Assembly: GCA_903881475.1 (NCBI GenBank)
Contig: CAIRTK010000018.1
Span: forward strand, 1-64,000
Length of the DNA stretch: 64,000 nucleotides
From: an uncultured Opitutia bacterium
GTDB taxonomy: Bacteria; Verrucomicrobiota; Verrucomicrobiia; Opitutales; Opitutaceae
Direction of reading: 5' to 3'
Shown: positions 17,231 to 60,141 of the stretch, piece after piece
Numbering within the stretch: the first letter of the stretch is position 1
Layout of the letters: every line of letters begins with the position of its first letter
Notes under the pieces: model-generated
Databases searched by the model: none
Told to the model about the DNA's origin: nothing
Seen by the model: only the letters and a program-made list of their open reading frames with translations
Program-made: the position numbers and the translations under genes

Positions 17231-17312
17231 AACACGGAGTTCGCAGAGCGCACGGAGAAAATCCGTGGGTGACTCCGCCGCGGTCCCCGTGCTTCCCTAT
17301 GCCCTCCGTGTT
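17231..17312. repeat. Inverted repeat, CACGGAG family, over the rlmD-like start
   Basis: AACACGGAG (17231-17239) and CTCCGTGTT (17304-17312) are the outermost complementary words. Inner words (CGCAGAG, CACGGAG) match less well. The proposed start codon of the next gene (ATG 17299) and its first residues MPSVF lie in the right arm. Confidence 0.75.
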
Positions 17313-29007: not shown

Positions 29008-29081
29008 GGATCGCGGAAACGCGGAAGGGAGGAAACCCTGAAATCCGAGGTCATTTCCGCGCTTCCGCGCTTCCGCGATCC
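29008..29081. repeat. Inverted repeat, CGCGGAA words, between convergent genes
   Basis: GGATCGCGGAAACGCGGAAG on the left and GCGCTTCCGCGATCC on the right are nearly perfect complements, with a partly duplicated CGCGGAA word. The element lies in the convergent gap and could also end transcription from both sides. Confidence 0.8.
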
Positions 29082-46555: not shown

Positions 46556-46630
46556 GTAGCAGCCGACGTGAGGAGGCTGGTTTGAAACTCACGAGTAATG
46601 ACAGCCCAGCCTCCTCACGTCGGCTGCTAC
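46556..46630. repeat. Perfect 25-bp inverted repeat, TAGCAGCCGACG family
   Basis: The 25 bases at 46556-46580 (beginning GTAGCAGCCGACGTGAGGAG) are the exact reverse complement of 46606-46630. The spacer is 25 bases. A single related arm occurs at 60442-60466. The perfect match suggests a recent or maintained element. Confidence 0.95.
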
Positions 46631-47535: not shown

Positions 47536-47573
47536 GAGGGGTCGGGAGCAGCGGAGAAATTGGGATGCCGGGG

Positions 47574-47626
47574 CAGGGCGGATTATCCCTCATCCGCCGC
47601 GGCGCGTTAAGGATAACGCGCCCTAC
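47574..47626. repeat. Inverted repeat, AGGGCGCGTTATCC family
   Basis: AGGGCGGATTATCCCTCATC and GGCGCGTTAAGGATAACGCG with CCCT are complementary with a few mismatches. A second member of the family is at 55411-55463. It lies 22 bases from the dnaN stop. Confidence 0.85.
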
Positions 47627-47648
47627 CATCGTCACCGGAGTCGAAAAA

Positions 47649-50386: not shown

Positions 50387-50450
50387 GGGCGTAGCGCAGG
50401 CATTCTGCCTGCATCGGAATAAAAGCAGGCAAGATGCCTGCGCTACGCCC
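50387..50450. repeat. Perfect 17-bp inverted repeat, GGGCGTAGCGCAGGCAT family
   Basis: GGGCGTAGCGCAGGCAT (50387-50403) and its exact complement at 50434-50450 enclose two further copies of GCAGGC/GCCTGC words. It lies in the divergent gap between the RelE-like gene and ilvA, where no other feature is visible. Confidence 0.92.
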
Positions 50451-50495: not shown

Positions 50496-51710
50496 ATGCC
50501 TGTTACTTTGTCCGACATTCGCGCCGCCCAGCGCCGCATCGCGGGTGGGGTCATCGTCTCGCCCTGTCCCGAGTCTATTCCGCTTTCCGAGATCACCGGC
50601 GCGCGCATCGTCTGCAAACTCGACAACTTCCAGCGGACGGGCTCGTTCAAGGAGCGCGGCGCGCGCAACGCCCTGCTGCGGCTTTCCCCCGCGGCGAAGC
50701 AGCGCGGCGTGATCGCCGCTAGCGCCGGCAACCACGCGCTCGGGCTCGCCTACCACGGCCGGCTGCTGGGTATCCCGGTCACGGTGGTCATGCCGGACTA
50801 CGCCCCGCTCATCAAGATCACCACCTGCCAGCGGCTCGGCGCCACCGTGATCGTGCGCGGGAAGGATTTTGCCGAGGCCCGCGCGGAGGCCGATCTTCTC
50901 GTCGCCAGCCGGCACTTCACCTACATCCATGGGTTTGACGCGCCCGACATCATCGCCGGCCAGGGCACCATCGGGCTGGAAATCCTGAAGCAGGTGCCGG
51001 ACGTCGACGCCATCGTCTGCCCGGTCGGGGGCGGCGGGCTCATCGCCGGCCTGTCCCTCGCGGTGAAGTCCCTGCGCCCGCGCGTGAAGGTCATCGGCGT
51101 CGAAAGCGTTTCCACCGGAAATTTCGCCGCCGCACTGCGCGCGGGCAAACCGGTCACCGTCGCCCGCCGGCCCACGCTGGCCGACGGCCTGGCCACGCTC
51201 ACGGTGGGCGCCAACGCCTTCGCGTTGGCCCGCCGCCATGTGGACCAGGTCGTGAGCGTGACCGAGGACTGGATCTCCCTCGCCATCCTGCGGATGGTCG
51301 AGCTGGAGAAGACCGTGGTCGAGGGCGCCGCCGCCACGCCGCTCGCGGCGATGATGGCCGGCCGGCTGCCGAAGCTGCGAGGGAAGAAGGTCGTGCTGGT
51401 CGTCTGCGGCGGCAACATCGACCCGGCCATCCTCAGCCGGGTGATCGAGAAGGGCCTGGTGCACGACGGCCGCCTGACGCGCTTTACCGCCAAGATCAGC
51501 GACCGGCCCGGCGGGCTCGCCATGCTGTGCCGCGTGATCGCCGACGCCGGCGCCAGCATCAAAGACATCACACACGACCGCGCCTTCAGCGGGCCGGATG
51601 TGTACGCGGTGCATGCCGTCTGCACGGTCGAGACCCGCGACCACGCCCACATCGCGGCGCTGCACCGTGCCCTGAAGAAGCACGGCTTCCCGCTCGTCGT
51701 GGAGCAATGA
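50496..51710 (+). CDS. ilvA: Threonine ammonia-lyase with ACT domain
   Basis: This 404-aa PLP enzyme deaminates threonine to 2-oxobutanoate, the first step to isoleucine or of threonine breakdown. It has KLDNFQRTGSFKERGARNALL with the PLP Lys (K52), ASAGNHALGLAYHGRLLGI, YIHGFDAPDIIAGQGTIGLEI, the phosphate loop CPVGGGGLIAGL, EKTVVEGAAATPLAAMM and VVCGGNID. The C-terminal 80 residues (ISDRPGGLAMLCRVIADAG) form one ACT domain. The single ACT domain and length resemble the biodegradative type (tdcB-like), so the biosynthetic role is not certain. Its stop overlaps the start of a sugar ABC gene. Confidence 0.9.
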   Translation: MPVTLSDIRAAQRRIAGGVIVSPCPESIPLSEITGARIVCKLDNFQRTGSFKERGARNALLRLSPAAKQRGVIAASAGNHALGLAYHGRLLGIPVTVVMPDYAPLIKITTCQRLGATVIVRGKDFAEARAEADLLVASRHFTYIHGFDAPDIIAGQGTIGLEILKQVPDVDAIVCPVGGGGLIAGLSLAVKSLRPRVKVIGVESVSTGNFAAALRAGKPVTVARRPTLADGLATLTVGANAFALARRHVDQVVSVTEDWISLAILRMVELEKTVVEGAAATPLAAMMAGRLPKLRGKKVVLVVCGGNIDPAILSRVIEKGLVHDGRLTRFTAKISDRPGGLAMLCRVIADAGASIKDITHDRAFSGPDVYAVHAVCTVETRDHAHIAALHRALKKHGFPLVVEQ

Positions 51711-54019
51711 CACCACTGCCGCACGTCCGCTGCCGGCTGGGAGTCTGGGTTTTCCTGCTGGCGGTGCTCCGGCTGCACGCGGTCACCGAGATCGACATCC
51801 CGATCTTTACCGGCGGATTCGGCATCGGTTTCTACGAGCAGACCGCGCGCAAGTTCGAGGCGCTGCGTCCCGGCGTGAAGGTCAACGTGTACGGCGACCC
51901 GCGCATCTGGGACAAGGTCCGCGTGCGCGTGCTCAGCGGGGATTACCCGGACGCCACCACGGCCACGCTCTATTGGCCCAATCTCATCCGGGCGGGAAAG
52001 CTTCTGGATCTGACTCCGTACCTCGACGGACCGAACTGGGAAGGTGACGCCCGTTGGAGCGACACGTTTATCCCCGGCGTGCTGGGCAAATGGCGCAGGG
52101 ATGGCCGCTACTACGGGCTGCCGCTGATGAACGCGGCCTGGGTGCTGTACTACAACAAGGCCCTCTTCCGCGCCCACGGCTGGAATCCGCCCCGGACATG
52201 GGAGGAGTTTTTTACCCTGGCGGAAAAGATGCGCCGCGCCGGAATCGCCCCGCTGAGCCTGCCCGGCGTCTACATGAAGTACGGCGACTGCATCATCAAT
52301 GCCGCCTACTACAATCTGACCGGTCCCGGAGGCTGGCTTATGTTTAATGCTTACGCGCCCGGGGCGCGAGCCAATCCCCGGTTCTACCGCGCGGCGGAGG
52401 TCGCCCGGCGCATCACGAACGAGTGCATGATCCCTGGCTGGGAGGGTATGACTCACACCTCCGCCCAGCTCGCTTTTTTCGAGGGCCATAGCGCCATGAA
52501 CATCGCGGGGACTTGGCTCGTCAGTGAAATGGCAGGAAAAATCCCCGCTGATTTCGAACTCGGGGTGGTGAACCTGCCGGTGTTTGCCGACGGCGTCGGC
52601 GATCCCACCGCAACCCAGACGGGCAGCAATTTTTTCTTCGTGTTTGCCAGCGGCGATCCGCGGCGCGAGCAGCTCACGGTGGAATTTCTCCGCTACCTCA
52701 CCTCGCGGGAGCGGGCGGATGCCGCCGTGCGGGCCATCGACTCGCCGGTGGCGATCTCCGGCGTGCCGTTGGACCGGTTTTCCCCGCGGATGCGCGAGTC
52801 GGCGCGGATTGTGAACGAGGCGCGGGACACCTACAACGCCACGGATGACATGCTCGTGCCGCCGGGTTATGCACAGGCGTTCATTGACGCGCGCCAGCAA
52901 TTGTTCACCGGCCGGATGACCGCACAGGAGTTTGGCGACCGCCTTGAGGCCGCGGCGGCCGCCGACCAGGACCGGCAGGCCCATCCGGACCGGGTGAAAC
53001 AGGTGCACCCCTGGGCGGCGGCCGGCCTACTCGCCGGGCTGACCGCGACGTGCCTCTGGCTGGGCTGGCAGTGGCGGCGGCGCAGTGTGCAAAAGGAGGA
53101 GAAAATGGAAGGGGTGTATTTTGCCCCGCTGCGGGCCCCGCTCGCCCTGGGCTTTGTCGGACCGGCGCTGGCGTTGTTCGGCATCTTCGTGGTTCTGCCG
53201 GGGATCACGTCCCTCGCCTGGGCTTTCACGCACTGGGACGGCATCGGCGAGCGCACCTGGGCGGGCTGGTTCAACTTCAAGGTCCTGCTGCTCGAAAGCG
53301 ACGGGTTCTGGGCCGCCTTGAAGAACAATCTCTATCTCATGGTCGTGCCGGCGCTGGTTGTGGTGCCGCTTTCGCTGCTGTTCGCCAGCCTGATCCACCG
53401 CGGGGTCTGGGGTGCGAAGACCTTCCGCGCGCTGTTTCTCTTTCCCAACCTGCTCGGCGGCATCGCGGCCACGCTGCTCTGGATGAGCGCGTACGATCCG
53501 CACAACGGCATCGTGAACGCCGCGCTGGTGGCGCTGGGCAACCGGCTCGATGTGGACTGGCTCCGCGGCTTTGCGGCGCATCCCTGGCTGTCGCCGGACC
53601 ATCTCTATGGCTCGCTGATCCCGATCTATATCTGGATGGCCTGCGGGTTTAACCTGATCCTCTACCTCGCCGCGATGGAGGGGATCGATCCGCAACTCTA
53701 CGAGGCGGCGGAAATGGACGGCGCCCCGGCGTGGCGGCAGTTTTTCGCCATCACCGTGCCGATGATCTGGGAGGTGCTGGTCATCTCCGCGGTCTTCATC
53801 GTCATCGGCGGGCTCAACGCGTTTGAGCTTGTCTGGCTGCTGACCTCGCAGGAACCCGGCACCGGCTCGCACACGCTGAGCACGCTGATGGTCTCCACGA
53901 TGTTCAAGGACTTCCAGGTGGGACGGGCCACCGCCATCGCGGTCATGATGTTTGTCTTCGTACTCGTCGGCAGCGCGTCGGTCATGCGCGGGCTGAAGCG
54001 GGAGGCGGTGGAGTCGTAA
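51707..54019 (+). CDS. Sugar ABC transporter: binding protein fused to permease
   Basis: This 770-aa protein joins a solute-binding protein (residues 1-430) to a MalF-type permease (about 467-770). The binding part has a signal-like N-terminus (LGVWVFLLAVLRLHAV), FTGGFGIGFYEQTARKFEALRPGVKVNVYGDPRIW, YYGLPLMNAAWVLYYNKALF and the family 1 end. A helix (WAAAGLLAGLTATCLWLGW) and RRR link it to six further helices and the permease EAA motif EAAEMDGAPAWRQFFAITVPM. An AGGAGG and ATG at 53094-53107 could also start the permease alone. The ATPase is not in the window. Confidence 0.86.
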   Translation: MTPLPHVRCRLGVWVFLLAVLRLHAVTEIDIPIFTGGFGIGFYEQTARKFEALRPGVKVNVYGDPRIWDKVRVRVLSGDYPDATTATLYWPNLIRAGKLLDLTPYLDGPNWEGDARWSDTFIPGVLGKWRRDGRYYGLPLMNAAWVLYYNKALFRAHGWNPPRTWEEFFTLAEKMRRAGIAPLSLPGVYMKYGDCIINAAYYNLTGPGGWLMFNAYAPGARANPRFYRAAEVARRITNECMIPGWEGMTHTSAQLAFFEGHSAMNIAGTWLVSEMAGKIPADFELGVVNLPVFADGVGDPTATQTGSNFFFVFASGDPRREQLTVEFLRYLTSRERADAAVRAIDSPVAISGVPLDRFSPRMRESARIVNEARDTYNATDDMLVPPGYAQAFIDARQQLFTGRMTAQEFGDRLEAAAAADQDRQAHPDRVKQVHPWAAAGLLAGLTATCLWLGWQWRRRSVQKEEKMEGVYFAPLRAPLALGFVGPALALFGIFVVLPGITSLAWAFTHWDGIGERTWAGWFNFKVLLLESDGFWAALKNNLYLMVVPALVVVPLSLLFASLIHRGVWGAKTFRALFLFPNLLGGIAATLLWMSAYDPHNGIVNAALVALGNRLDVDWLRGFAAHPWLSPDHLYGSLIPIYIWMACGFNLILYLAAMEGIDPQLYEAAEMDGAPAWRQFFAITVPMIWEVLVISAVFIVIGGLNAFELVWLLTSQEPGTGSHTLSTLMVSTMFKDFQVGRATAIAVMMFVFVLVGSASVMRGLKREAVES
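53094..53107 (+). promoter_or_regulatory. Internal ribosome-binding site and start in the SBP-permease gene
   Basis: AGGAGG at 53094-53099, a 5-base spacer and ATG at 53105-53107 lie in frame between the binding-protein and permease parts. Translation from here would give a 304-residue permease starting MEGVYFAPLRAPLALGFVGP. Such a perfect site is rare inside genes. It could also be the original permease start kept after a fusion. Confidence 0.6.
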
Positions 54020-54020
54020 A

Positions 54021-54446
54021 ATGGAACACGGAGGACGCAGAGAGAAAGTCGTGAAACACCCTAATGAAATTACCGAGGCGATCATTGGCGCGGCCATTAA
54101 AGTTCATCGGGAACTCGGGCCGGGGCTGTTGGAATCCGCCTATGAAGCCTGTTTGGCTTATGAGCTGGCGAAGCAAGGCCATGCAATAGAGAGACAAAAG
54201 CGCGTACCCATTGTCTACGACGGAATTGAAATTGAGGAGGGGTATCGAATTGACCTGTTCGTGGACGGAACCGTGGTGGTCGAGCTGAAGGCCATATCCC
54301 GCCTTGAGGAAGTCCACTCTGCCCAGCTCCTCTCCTATGTCCGCCTGATGAAGCAACCCGTCGGTCTGCTCATCAATTTCAACGTCCTCCGGCTGATCGA
54401 TGGCGTGCGCCGGGTCGTCAACGGCCCCATCAGCCTTGCTCCGTGA
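54021..54446 (+). CDS. GxxExxY family protein
   Basis: This 141-aa protein is of the GxxExxY family: EITEAIIGAAIKVHRELGPGLLESAYEACLAYEL, with GPGLLESAYE giving the name, then YRIDLFVDGTVVVELKAISRLEEVHSAQLLSYVRLMKQPVGLLINF. The acidic and Lys residues in IDLF-VELKA look like a PD-(D/E)xK nuclease-type core; the function is unknown. Its ATG (54021) lies in one repeat arm and its TGA just before the other; GTG 54051 is an alternative start. It interrupts the sugar ABC operon, and its GC content is clearly lower than that of its neighbours. Confidence 0.86.
   Translation: MEHGGRREKVVKHPNEITEAIIGAAIKVHRELGPGLLESAYEACLAYELAKQGHAIERQKRVPIVYDGIEIEEGYRIDLFVDGTVVVELKAISRLEEVHSAQLLSYVRLMKQPVGLLINFNVLRLIDGVRRVVNGPISLAP
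54025..54042. repeat. Left arm of the repeat pair around the GxxExxY gene
   Basis: AACACGGAGGACGCAGAG. It is the near-exact complement of 54448-54465 (17 of 18 bases). The gene's ATG lies at its edge. Confidence 0.85.
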
Positions 54447-54447
54447 G

Positions 54448-54465
54448 CTCTGTGTCCTCCGTGTT
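54448..54465. repeat. Right arm of the repeat pair around the GxxExxY gene
   Basis: CTCTGTGTCCTCCGTGTT starts one base after the GxxExxY stop codon. It is the complement of the left arm and belongs to the AACACGGAG word family also seen at 17231-17312 and 26803-26900. Confidence 0.85.
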
Positions 54466-54484
54466 AAATAAATTCATGAGATTG

Positions 54485-54507
54485 AACACGGAGGGCGCGG
54501 AGAGCAC
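54485..54507. repeat. Third AACACGGAGGGC copy after the GxxExxY gene
   Basis: AACACGGAGGGCGCGGAGAG, in the same orientation as the left arm, lies 19 bases after the right arm and just before the permease gene. It is likely a remnant of the element that hosted the insertion. Confidence 0.7.
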
Positions 54508-54534
54508 AGCGATAGCCCTGAAGCAGGTAAAACC

Positions 54535-55413
54535 GTGTCCCCGCCCTTAGAGATCCCTGTGTTAAAACAAAAATCCATCGTCACCAAACCGCTCATCCTC
54601 GCCGTGCTGCTCGGCTATGCGCTCTGGGTGGTCTATCCCATGGTGTGGATGGTCTATTCGTCGCTCAAGACCGACGCCGCCATCGCGCACGAGCCGTTTG
54701 CGCTGCCGCCGTTTTCCGACCTGCGCTTCGACAATTACGGCCACGCTTGGCGGGAGGCGCATTTCAGCGATTATTTTTTCAACTCCGCGGTCGTGACCGT
54801 CGTCTCAGTCGGCGCCATCCTGGCGCTGGGATCAATGGCGGCCTACGCGCTGGCTCGGTTTTACCATCCACTGGGCAAGGCCGTGTTCTGGCTGTTCCTG
54901 TCCGGCCTCATGATTCCGGTGCAACTCTCGATCATCCCGCTGTTCTTTGAGATGCGCACGCTCGGCCTGCTCAATTCCAAGCTGGGCCTCATCCTCGTTT
55001 ACACGGCCAACGGCCTGCCGTTCGCGATCTTCATCCTCGCCGGTTTTTTCCGGTCGCTCCCGCGCTCGCTCTACGAGGCGGCGGTGATCGACGGGTGCGG
55101 CGAATTCGCCGCGTTCTGGCGCGTGCTGCTCCCGCTGGCCAAGCCGGGGCTCATGACCGTCGCAATCTTCCAGTTCATCGGCGTGTGGAAGGAATATTTC
55201 TTCGCCTTCATGCTGACAGGCGGCGACACGACCAACGGTGCCCGCACGCTGCCGCTCGGCCTTGCGAACCTTTCCATCACCGCCCAATACAACACCGACT
55301 ACGGCATGCTCTTCGCCGGCCTGGTGCTGGTGACGCTTCCGATCCTCGCGCTTTACCTGCTGCTCCAGCGGCACATCGTGAAGGGCGTGTCCGCCGGAGC
55401 GCTGAAGGGGTAG
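54535..55413 (+). CDS. Carbohydrate ABC transporter permease, MalG type
   Basis: This 292-aa inner-membrane permease has six helices and the MalG pattern: ALWVVYPMVWMVYSSLKTDAAIAHEPFALPPF, YFFNSAVVTVVSVGAILALGSMAAYALARF, IPVQLSIIPLFFEMRTLGLLNSKLGLILVY. The EAA loop is SLYEAAVIDGCGEFAAFWRVLLPLAKPGL. It is the partner of the binding protein-permease fusion 515 bases upstream; a GxxExxY gene separates the two. GTG 54535 is taken as start, with GTG 54559 as an alternative. The TAG stop (55411) is formed by the first bases of the following repeat. Confidence 0.92.
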   Translation: MSPPLEIPVLKQKSIVTKPLILAVLLGYALWVVYPMVWMVYSSLKTDAAIAHEPFALPPFSDLRFDNYGHAWREAHFSDYFFNSAVVTVVSVGAILALGSMAAYALARFYHPLGKAVFWLFLSGLMIPVQLSIIPLFFEMRTLGLLNSKLGLILVYTANGLPFAIFILAGFFRSLPRSLYEAAVIDGCGEFAAFWRVLLPLAKPGLMTVAIFQFIGVWKEYFFAFMLTGGDTTNGARTLPLGLANLSITAQYNTDYGMLFAGLVLVTLPILALYLLLQRHIVKGVSAGALKG

Positions 55414-55479: not shown

Positions 55480-56115
55480 CTACGGCTTGGGTGTGGTGGA
55501 GGGCACGTCAGTCTGGACATATGTCGTCGTGCGGCTCGTGGTCGTGCCGTTGGGTTTAGTGATGTCGGTCACGCGCGTGTCCGTGCCGCCCGGGCCAAAC
55601 GTGTTGGTGACATTCTTGTCCACGGTCTGGCCGTTGGGGCCCGTGATGGTGCCGGTGGTCGAGCTGCCGGTCGCGGTCCGGACGGTGTTATTGGCGTAGG
55701 TGGAGGTTTTGCCCGAGGGACCAGTGATGGTGCCCTGGCCGGAAACCGAGCCATCGGCGTTCTTGGTCAGCGTACCTTGGCGCGAGGAGGTCTTCCCGTT
55801 GAATCCGGTGGTTGAAGAGGAAACGGTGCCCGTGCCGGCCGCCCGGTTCCACGTGCGGGTCGCAGACTGGTTGGCCGTTTGGCCGTTCTGATTGGTCACC
55901 GTCGAGAGCCGGGTCCGGGTACCCGCGCCGCGCGTGATGGTGGAGTTGACGGTCCCGCTGTTGCCATTGCTGGATTGATAGGTGCCGGAGCGGGTCTTGG
56001 TGGTGGTTTTCGGCTCTGTGGTTTCATCGGCGGCGCGTGCCGGGGTGAAGAGGGCGAGGAAAACGCCGGTCAGGATGACCGCGGCAACGACTTTGAAGGA
56101 GTGATCATTTTTCAT
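55480..56115 (-). CDS. Secreted low-complexity Thr/Ser/Gly repeat protein
   Basis: I do not recognise this 211-aa protein. A signal peptide (KVVAAVILTGVFLALFTPARAA) is followed by a Thr, Ser, Gly and Asn-rich chain with about five repeats of period near 24. Each contains a Gly-x-Asn/Ser-Gly-x-Thr core: NQNGQTANQSATRT, GFNGKTSSRQGTLT, GPSGKTSTYANNTV, GPNGQTVDKNVTNT, KPNGTTTSRTTTYV. The chain ends PSTTPKP. It lacks Cys and aromatic residues, as surface or matrix fibres often do. It stands alone on the minus strand. Confidence 0.75.
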   Translation of the reverse strand: MKNDHSFKVVAAVILTGVFLALFTPARAADETTEPKTTTKTRSGTYQSSNGNSGTVNSTITRGAGTRTRLSTVTNQNGQTANQSATRTWNRAAGTGTVSSSTTGFNGKTSSRQGTLTKNADGSVSGQGTITGPSGKTSTYANNTVRTATGSSTTGTITGPNGQTVDKNVTNTFGPGGTDTRVTDITKPNGTTTSRTTTYVQTDVPSTTPKP

Positions 56116-56847: not shown

Positions 56848-56925
56848 TTTTTACCGGAGGTAATGGAGAGAACGGAGAAGTGACGCTCAGCTCGCTCCGT
56901 TTCCTCCATTACCTCCTGTAAAAAA
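56848..56925. repeat. Inverted repeat, TACCGGAGGTAATGGAG family
   Basis: TTTTTACCGGAGGTAATGGA and TCCATTACCTCCTGTAAAAA are complementary with few mismatches. It is the same family as the perfect repeat at 59986-60069. Each arm contains an AGGAGGT-like word in the RNA. Confidence 0.85.
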
Positions 56926-59890: not shown

Positions 59891-59985
59891 GAAGTGGCGA
59901 TACGGTGCAGAGCGCGAAGTTGGGACACGTCGGGATTAAGGAGTTCCGGGTGTCGCGGGCAAGCGGACAGAGGACCGCATGTTGT

Positions 59986-60069
59986 TTTTACAGGAGGTAA
60001 CGGAGAGAACGCAGGTCGGAAATAGGAGAGCGCAGGCCTTCTCCGTTCTCTCCGTTACCTCCTGTAAAA
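59986..60069. repeat. Perfect 26-bp inverted repeat, TTTTACAGGAGGTAACGGAG family
   Basis: The 26 bases at 59986-60011 (TTTTACAGGAGGTAACGGAG, then AGAACG) are the exact reverse complement of 60044-60069, with 32 bases between. A degenerate relative is at 56848-56925. The perfect arms suggest recent formation or correction. Confidence 0.95.
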
Positions 60070-60141
60070 GCAGACCGGAATGCCGAAACGATTGCGCGCA
60101 CTGGGATACGCGGACAGCATCCGGAGCGTTTGCCAGCTCTC

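Follow-up and report, generated by a model that had tools for sequence, protein, structure and literature searches.

The GxxExxY gene of the window (the whole stretch of DNA analysed, 64,000 nucleotides from an uncultured Opitutia bacterium of the Opitutaceae) sits in the loop of a hairpin whose arms are arrays of a short word. We explain it best, with a probability a little below 0.6, as part of a miniature selfish hairpin that has its own PD-(D/E)XK nuclease, spreads partly by re-invading conserved junctions in a homing-like manner and is accompanied by gene-less, non-autonomous copies; its mobility and nuclease activity are what we infer.

We conceive that the unit would work as follows. 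The nuclease gene lies in the loop of a long hairpin, whose arms are arrays of 7-base words at 8-10-base steps, and the GxxExxY nuclease would recognise the words of its own arms. The unit would spread by nuclease cutting and host repair, mostly by homing into the orthologous junction of a genome without the unit and more rarely into new places, and the nuclease would also mobilise gene-less hairpins in trans. The arms would pair in RNA, and RNase III may cut them there, much as it does with rRNA intervening sequences; the insert would then be tolerable to the host operon. In addition, the purine-rich 5′ arm may double as the ribosome-binding site of the GxxExxY gene.

The element and its surroundings contain the following features.

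51527-54019, plus strand: upstream host gene, a solute-binding protein/ABC permease fusion (ORF and profile match)
54021-54446, plus strand: GxxExxY gene with a predicted PD-(D/E)XK nuclease fold; conserved D, E-x-K and Q-x-x-x-Y
54025-54051, plus strand: 5′ arm, purine-rich, overlapping the ORF start; words CACGGAG at 54027-54033 and CGCAGAG at 54036-54042
54439-54465, plus strand: 3′ arm with three inverted words, pairing with the 5′ arm in predicted RNA
54485-54567, plus strand: probable gene-less hairpin; three-word 5′ arm at 54485-54511, unique loop, degenerate 3′ arm
54535-55413, plus strand: downstream host gene, an ABC permease (ORF and profile match)

A preliminary description of this DNA had placed inverted arms around the gene and a third arm copy downstream, and both are borne out. 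The 5′ arm is AACACGGAGGACGCAGAG at 54025-54042, its complement (17 of 18 bases matching) is at 54448-54465, and a third copy of the AACACGGAGGACGCAGAG type, with two mismatches, is at 54485-54502. The 3′ arm extends further than that description gave it, and the stop codon is not in front of it: the TGA (54444-54446) overlaps the innermost of three 3′ words (CTCCGTG at 54439-54445, CTCTGTG at 54448-54454 and CTCCGTG at 54457-54463). The third word of the 5′ arm is decayed. The copy at 54485 is best taken as a full 5′ arm belonging to another hairpin, one without gene, whose degenerate 3′ arm, with its putative boundary, probably enters the start of the downstream permease; comparison with relatives suggests that this permease starts near 54562.

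The ORF at 54021-54446 encodes 141 amino acids and matches TIGR04256 (GxxExxY) with 147.4 bits (cut-off 35) and PF13366 (PDDEXK_3) with 145.3 bits (cut-off 22) in profile searches. GTG at 54051 may be the actual start codon served by the purine-rich arm. Two further early claims hold: the gene is GC-poorer (0.556) than its neighbours (0.654 and 0.617), and it splits the binding protein-permease gene from the second permease according to ORFs and profile matches. RNA folding of the element is predicted to pair the arms with a z of -3.1, and no part of the window matches Rfam at the gathering threshold. Apart from this element, a Thr/Gly/Asn-rich repetitive ORF without Pfam match lies on the minus strand at 55480-56115.

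Inverted arms were scored at GxxExxY loci elsewhere. GxxExxY genes are present in 129 of 150 family genomes, and at least 581 loci were confirmed in a scan of bacterial and archaeal genomes. Each species is represented by one genome throughout, and many of the genomes are drafts or MAGs. Arms scoring at least 30 flank 64 of the 89 usable family loci (94, less one not located and four too short; chosen by best profile scores, which under-samples weaker copies) and 54 of the 76 usable global loci (80, less four too short), the latter spread over many phyla of named genomes, two Methanosarcinales MAGs among them. When flanks were swapped, the rates dropped to 8.3% and 8.7%, respectively. Among ordinary ORFs of 100-300 amino acids from the genus of the window, 3 of 138 reached 30 and none of 138 reached 36. 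Such arms usually go with GxxExxY genes in many phyla, in line with the early remark that these genes are often found beside such repeats. A CACGGAG-type pattern with up to two mismatches has 112 + 102 matches in the genome of the window, compared with 27 + 34 for the pattern read backwards; from these counts and the two controls, the arms in the window are not a product of chance.

Five GxxExxY genes are found in this genome, at the window junction, between gyrB and gyrA, before uvrB, beside argH and between nusB and ftsY (these gene names, like gatA and gatB below, come from the best NCBIfam match of each partial protein, in some cases under the full-length cut-off). Four of the five have arms and the fifth (L003) has a decayed trace by eye, which supports gene plus arms as one inserted unit; the arm sequence differs from copy to copy. 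The other neighbour of the argH-side copy resembles mutL by eye. Two GxxExxY copies in congeners (L327 in G002, L328 in G004) have a stop codon inside the profile match and are decaying copies.

The arms follow a grammar. An arm consists of up to three heptamers (sometimes four, by eye) separated by spacers of 1-3 bases, the heptamers mostly have the form CRCNRAN (CACGGAG in the window), and the mirror arm carries the same words. A word triple occurs in both arms at 64 of 89 loci, compared with 50 of 266 after swapping and 8 of 89 with one flank reversed. With one element for each of 59 sites, the two arms are 89.5% identical in words and 49% in spacers, although the words are inflated in identity and in pairing because elements were picked by word similarity. 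Spacer lengths are equal in 100 of 118 cases; swapping gives expectations, from 55 elements, of 38% for equal spacer length and 36% for spacer identity. Word and spacing are thus conserved and the letters of the spacers almost unconstrained, unlike the trace expected of a recent inverted duplication.

Pairing was analysed in 16 elements with 2-base spacers, where words and outer bases are 90.3% paired and spacers 65.6% and 43.8%. Covariation is 0.371, compared with 0.182 after shuffling, and further pair types are weakly raised (38 versus 33.4, reached by 23 of 500 shuffles). The pair table behind the 55-element expectations above covers only words that start with CAC or CGC (55 of 64 elements), and hairpin ends are approximate.

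Structure prediction and conserved residues point to a nuclease fold whose active site is intact, and nuclease activity would follow from this. AlphaFold2 with 60 aligned sequences gives a mean pLDDT of 90, whereas single-sequence prediction gives 42. In this alignment, with the window protein first and 59 of the 70 global proteins without stops taken, D78, E88, K90, Q102 and the GxxExxY motif are invariant. The nearest solved fold is Cas4 SSO0001 (Foldseek E 1.7e-3; VIA-align Z 9.2, rmsd 4.3 over 101 residues), followed by the restriction-endonuclease-like protein 3ijm (Z 8.6, rmsd 3.1, 100 residues), BpuSI (Z 8.0, rmsd 2.5, 93 residues) and an archaeal Holliday-junction resolvase (Z 7.3); most VIA-align Z values are below 8, a range for which common arrangements are warned of. 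Foldseek gave nothing against the PDB at E ≤ 0.001, and a profile search of PDB sequences gave no match at E up to 1.

On the sequences compared, the arm words follow the nuclease protein tree. The tree was built from 125 columns and kept 103 of 114 elements, the rest being without readable word. It requires 47 word changes, compared with 73.9 for shuffled labels (minimum 67). Because many of the 103 loci share a site, flanks were clustered and one locus was taken per site: 173 loci fell into 101 sites, of which 60 had a word and were used, although clustering by translated similarity can merge loci that share merely a gene family. With the 60 sites, word positions 4 and 5 require 15 and 10 changes, compared with 22.7 and 19.5 when shuffled, and none of 500 shuffles reached either value. 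Equally low values turned up in 2 of 500 shuffles for position 7, in 2 for the whole word and in 7 for position 2.

The arm rule extends to a second protein family. IVP genes (PF05635, a four-helix bundle) are present in 81 of 100 family genomes, and 27 of 34 IVP loci have inverted arms scoring at least 30 (3.5% after swapping). Their best lag is 7 in 26 of 27, whereas the best lag of GxxExxY arms is 8-10 in all 62 cases from the family and in 45 of the 52 global ones; arms outside 18-70 bases were omitted from the GxxExxY counts, which kept 62 of 64 and 52 of 54, respectively. Arm period separates GxxExxY from IVP almost completely. A periodic inverted-repeat scan of 101 loci found 21 pairs that enclose at least 180 bases, and these contain the GxxExxY gene that recruited the locus (10), a profile-confirmed IVP gene (2) or neither (9).

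Arms also occur without genes. Because a strict de novo word scanner found only eight hairpins across 462 kb, taken from seven genomes of this genus (one in a simulated control), a general inverted-repeat search was used. Among the 45 hairpins that it found, 21 match arms of the 34 gene-bearing elements of the genus, compared with 2 of 45 when arms were reversed, and many of the unmatched ones look REP-like. In the genome of the window, CACGGAG hairpins have arms alike and loops of about 50 bases that look unrelated by eye. Besides the probable one at 54485, gene-less hairpins of the window include the following, without assigned strand.

17231-17312: imperfect CACGGAG hairpin
29008-29081: hairpin with CGCGGAA words; arms match the GxxExxY element L326 of congener G008
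56848-56924: hairpin of the ACAGGAGG/AACGGAG family; arms match the GxxExxY element L314 of congener G007
59983-60072: second hairpin of the ACAGGAGG/AACGGAG family

The link between hairpin count and a gene with matching arms is loose among the GxxExxY copies compared. Matches to ACAGGAGG/AACGGAG words number 135 in G007 (backward control 16), which carries the element L314 with such arms, 85 in the genome of the window (2) and 69 in G008 (3), and range from 0 to 46 in the other nine genomes. For CACGGAG words, the count is 33 in the genome of the window and 56 in G007, whereas the genomes nearest to that of the window have 7 (G008), 13 (G011) and 17 (G009).

REP/RAYT elements are intergenic hairpins, and REP-like families are also in the window. 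REP-like palindromes of the GTAGCAGCCGACGTGAGGAGGCTGG type and two G+C-rich types lie at 46556-46630, 47572-47627 and 50387-50450, and similar ones occur in the congener stretches L258, L259, L260 and L273. Their words differ from ours, none of their arms matches arms of GxxExxY or IVP elements, and the GxxExxY gene does not encode a Y1 transposase. Arms of the TGTCATYCTGAGCG type mark another dispersed hairpin family (L257 12174-12261, L259 6877-6967), without gene-bearing match.

The preliminary description had proposed that gene and arms depend on an outside enzyme. In one form of this proposal, an enzyme encoded elsewhere, such as a Y1-type transposase or a reverse transcriptase, moves the hairpins, and GxxExxY and IVP are cargo in their loops. 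The arm architecture common to two unrelated protein families would fit, and a shared outside enzyme may be hinted at by the IVP genes, whose arms are similar although no nuclease is annotated for them. The commonness of gene-less hairpins would fit too, as would the abundance of the ACAGGAGG family in genomes without a matching-arm gene among the GxxExxY copies compared. However, random cargo would not be expected to have an arm period that splits by protein family and words that track the nuclease tree, nor does it suit the invariance of the nuclease residues across the aligned proteins. The data thus lend no support to a need for an outside enzyme, although we leave this alternative a minor but real probability. 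A cognate protein fits the agreement of word with tree and of period with family, although co-inheritance of word and nuclease without recognition could give part of it and may also be compatible with the shuffle results.

An empty site in related Opitutaceae had been named early on as support for insertion, and comparison of the same ABC operon found it. The downstream permease ortholog is present in 11 of 11 congeners searched, and the junction is empty in all 11, with the two permease genes overlapping or a few bases apart. This supports the early claim that gene plus arms are an inserted unit. A tree built from both permeases places the window within a set of empty congeners: its starred group of four rows lies inside a group of 12 (support 83), and all rows but the window are empty.

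Outside the genus, this junction can be empty, hold a gene-less hairpin or hold a GxxExxY gene. Related GxxExxY genes fill it at eight loci, two of which (L075 and L160) are identical over the stretch compared, so the junction has been repeatedly colonised, or the unit has been kept and lost. Gene-less hairpins with a different word are there in L054, L055, L059 and L061, recognised by eye and labelled by gap length in a 30-row comparison; in L056 the upstream gene is missing. On the 30-row host tree, in which the identical stretches L075 and L160 are counted twice, filled versus not filled requires six changes and the three states require nine. In the nuclease tree, the window protein falls together with those site-mates whose word is readable, in a group of 8 rows that has support 93 and is drawn open. 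These related genes at the same junction, the arm rule for IVP genes and the gene-less hairpins were all omitted from the earlier reading.

Signs of both movement and descent are found at other sites. In one family genome (G062), two copies (L098 and L139) are 83% identical over gene and arms while their flanks are otherwise unrelated; the right border is the arm end, and the left border is less clean. At the gatA-gatB site, three species of one genus hold nucleases of two clades (p-AU 0.0006). Among five other multi-row genera at this site, three are not rejected (p-AU 0.26, 0.66 and 0.66), one is already a branch, and in the fifth L121 and L126 are a starred pair in the free tree. Because most of these other genus groups are not rejected, vertical inheritance matters. 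On this evidence, one nuclease took the place of another at gatA-gatB on at least one occasion, or both existed side by side and were later sorted, and much else fits descent.

Descent alone would make the unit a resident regulatory module, in which an old vertical gene has arms that regulate its own or the operon mRNA and patchiness comes from loss. Several sites are indeed common to genera (flank clusters of 24, 10, 9, 8 and 6 loci), gene and host distances correlate weakly at gatA-gatB (24 loci; r 0.26, Mantel p 0.008), and the arms pair in predicted RNA. Against this, the empty congeners around the window lineage would require losses that are several and exact, two nuclease clades share one site within one genus, copies sit at unrelated sites, and gene-less hairpins have the same arms. 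We regard this alternative as improbable, more so than the outside enzyme.

Transposon/MITE pairs are gene-bearing and gene-less units with common terminal inverted repeats, which our units resemble. They differ in that the arms are word arrays and the gene-less loops look unrelated by eye. Repeats of at least 7 within 40 bases are found in 14.6% of 144 elements, compared with 7.4% after swapping, but with exact ends uncertain there is no clear excess of abutting repeats as from target-site duplication. Outer-flank inverted repeats give no clear signal, either. No DDE transposase is in the element, which matches only TIGR04256 in NCBIfam and PF13366 plus a sub-cut-off Cas4 in Pfam. An ordinary DDE-type transposon with terminal inverted repeats, despite that resemblance, or chance hairpins beside a gene, which the flank-swap and ordinary-ORF controls disfavour, are thus very hard to sustain.

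By analogy, the selfish hairpin would join two known models, a hairpin like the rRNA intervening sequence (IVS) and a free-standing homing nuclease. First, the Coxiella burnetii IVS has ends that form a 28-bp stem and is excised by RNase III in vitro; its S23/IVP ORF follows two or three GACAGAT heptamers in tandem (PMC4990558). Like our proposed unit, the IVS is a short selfish unit, in which terminal inverted repeats form a stem around one ORF, with sporadic distribution and conserved insertion sites (PMC4990558). Unlike the IVS, which is in rRNA genes, the window unit lies between protein genes for an ABC transporter, its ORF matches PF13366 and not PF05635, and its words are spaced with a period of 8-10 rather than tandem; RNase III excision is reported for the IVS only. 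The Coxiella IVS resembles the IVP version of the arm architecture found here.

Second, the seg/mob free-standing homing endonucleases of T4-like phages are lone nuclease genes between conserved genes (PMC2988022). The window gene is likewise a lone nuclease gene between conserved genes, and its junction is patchily occupied, with all 11 congeners empty and related copies in other genera. However, the seg/mob enzymes are of the GIY-YIG or HNH type and are carried by phages (PMC2988022), whereas the window unit is PD-(D/E)XK, chromosomal and has word arms. PD-(D/E)-XK is itself counted among homing endonuclease families (PMC6083498). Carriage by plasmids or phages looks rare, as a search with the window protein matched 8 of 72,556 plasmid records and none of 50,697 phage records.

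The TAACTGA repeats of Beggiatoaceae likewise form arrays of heptamers between genes, usually a short way upstream of a start codon (PMC4679880). They are direct, with one indirect in that genome, whereas the window words are mirrored in a partner arm; the abstract-level account describes them without an inverted partner arm around a gene family (PMC4679880). Among the open-licence papers listed in a literature search, none described such nuclease-hairpin units. The name GxxExxY is scarce in that literature, and a passage that carries it gives no function.

Tentatively, and with somewhat less than even confidence, we suggest an undescribed superclass of selfish hairpins with word-array arms, in which the grammar is family-specific, the protein reads the word, gene-less partners occur in bacteria and archaea, and 23S rRNA intervening sequences are one special case. 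The word grammar makes a prediction, namely that protein clade predicts arm word, and offers a route to the function of two little-understood families, GxxExxY and IVP. The arm rule links GxxExxY units to rRNA intervening sequences, and GxxExxY/IVP elements are a possible origin for a class of intergenic hairpins.

Some loci have composite arrangements. In the gyrB-gyrA gap (L240-L248, by eye), a GxxExxY element is in two genomes, gene-less hairpins with two words in two, an arm remnant in one, nothing in two and another insert in one, and one contig ends there. In L085, the GxxExxY gene lies between two near-identical stretches of about 119 bases, each resembling a complete gene-less hairpin. 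Hairpins with different words are nested in the loops of other hairpins by eye (L257 17912-18093, L254 5878-5991, L263 14159-14363 and L032), as if hairpin loops were preferred or harmless targets.
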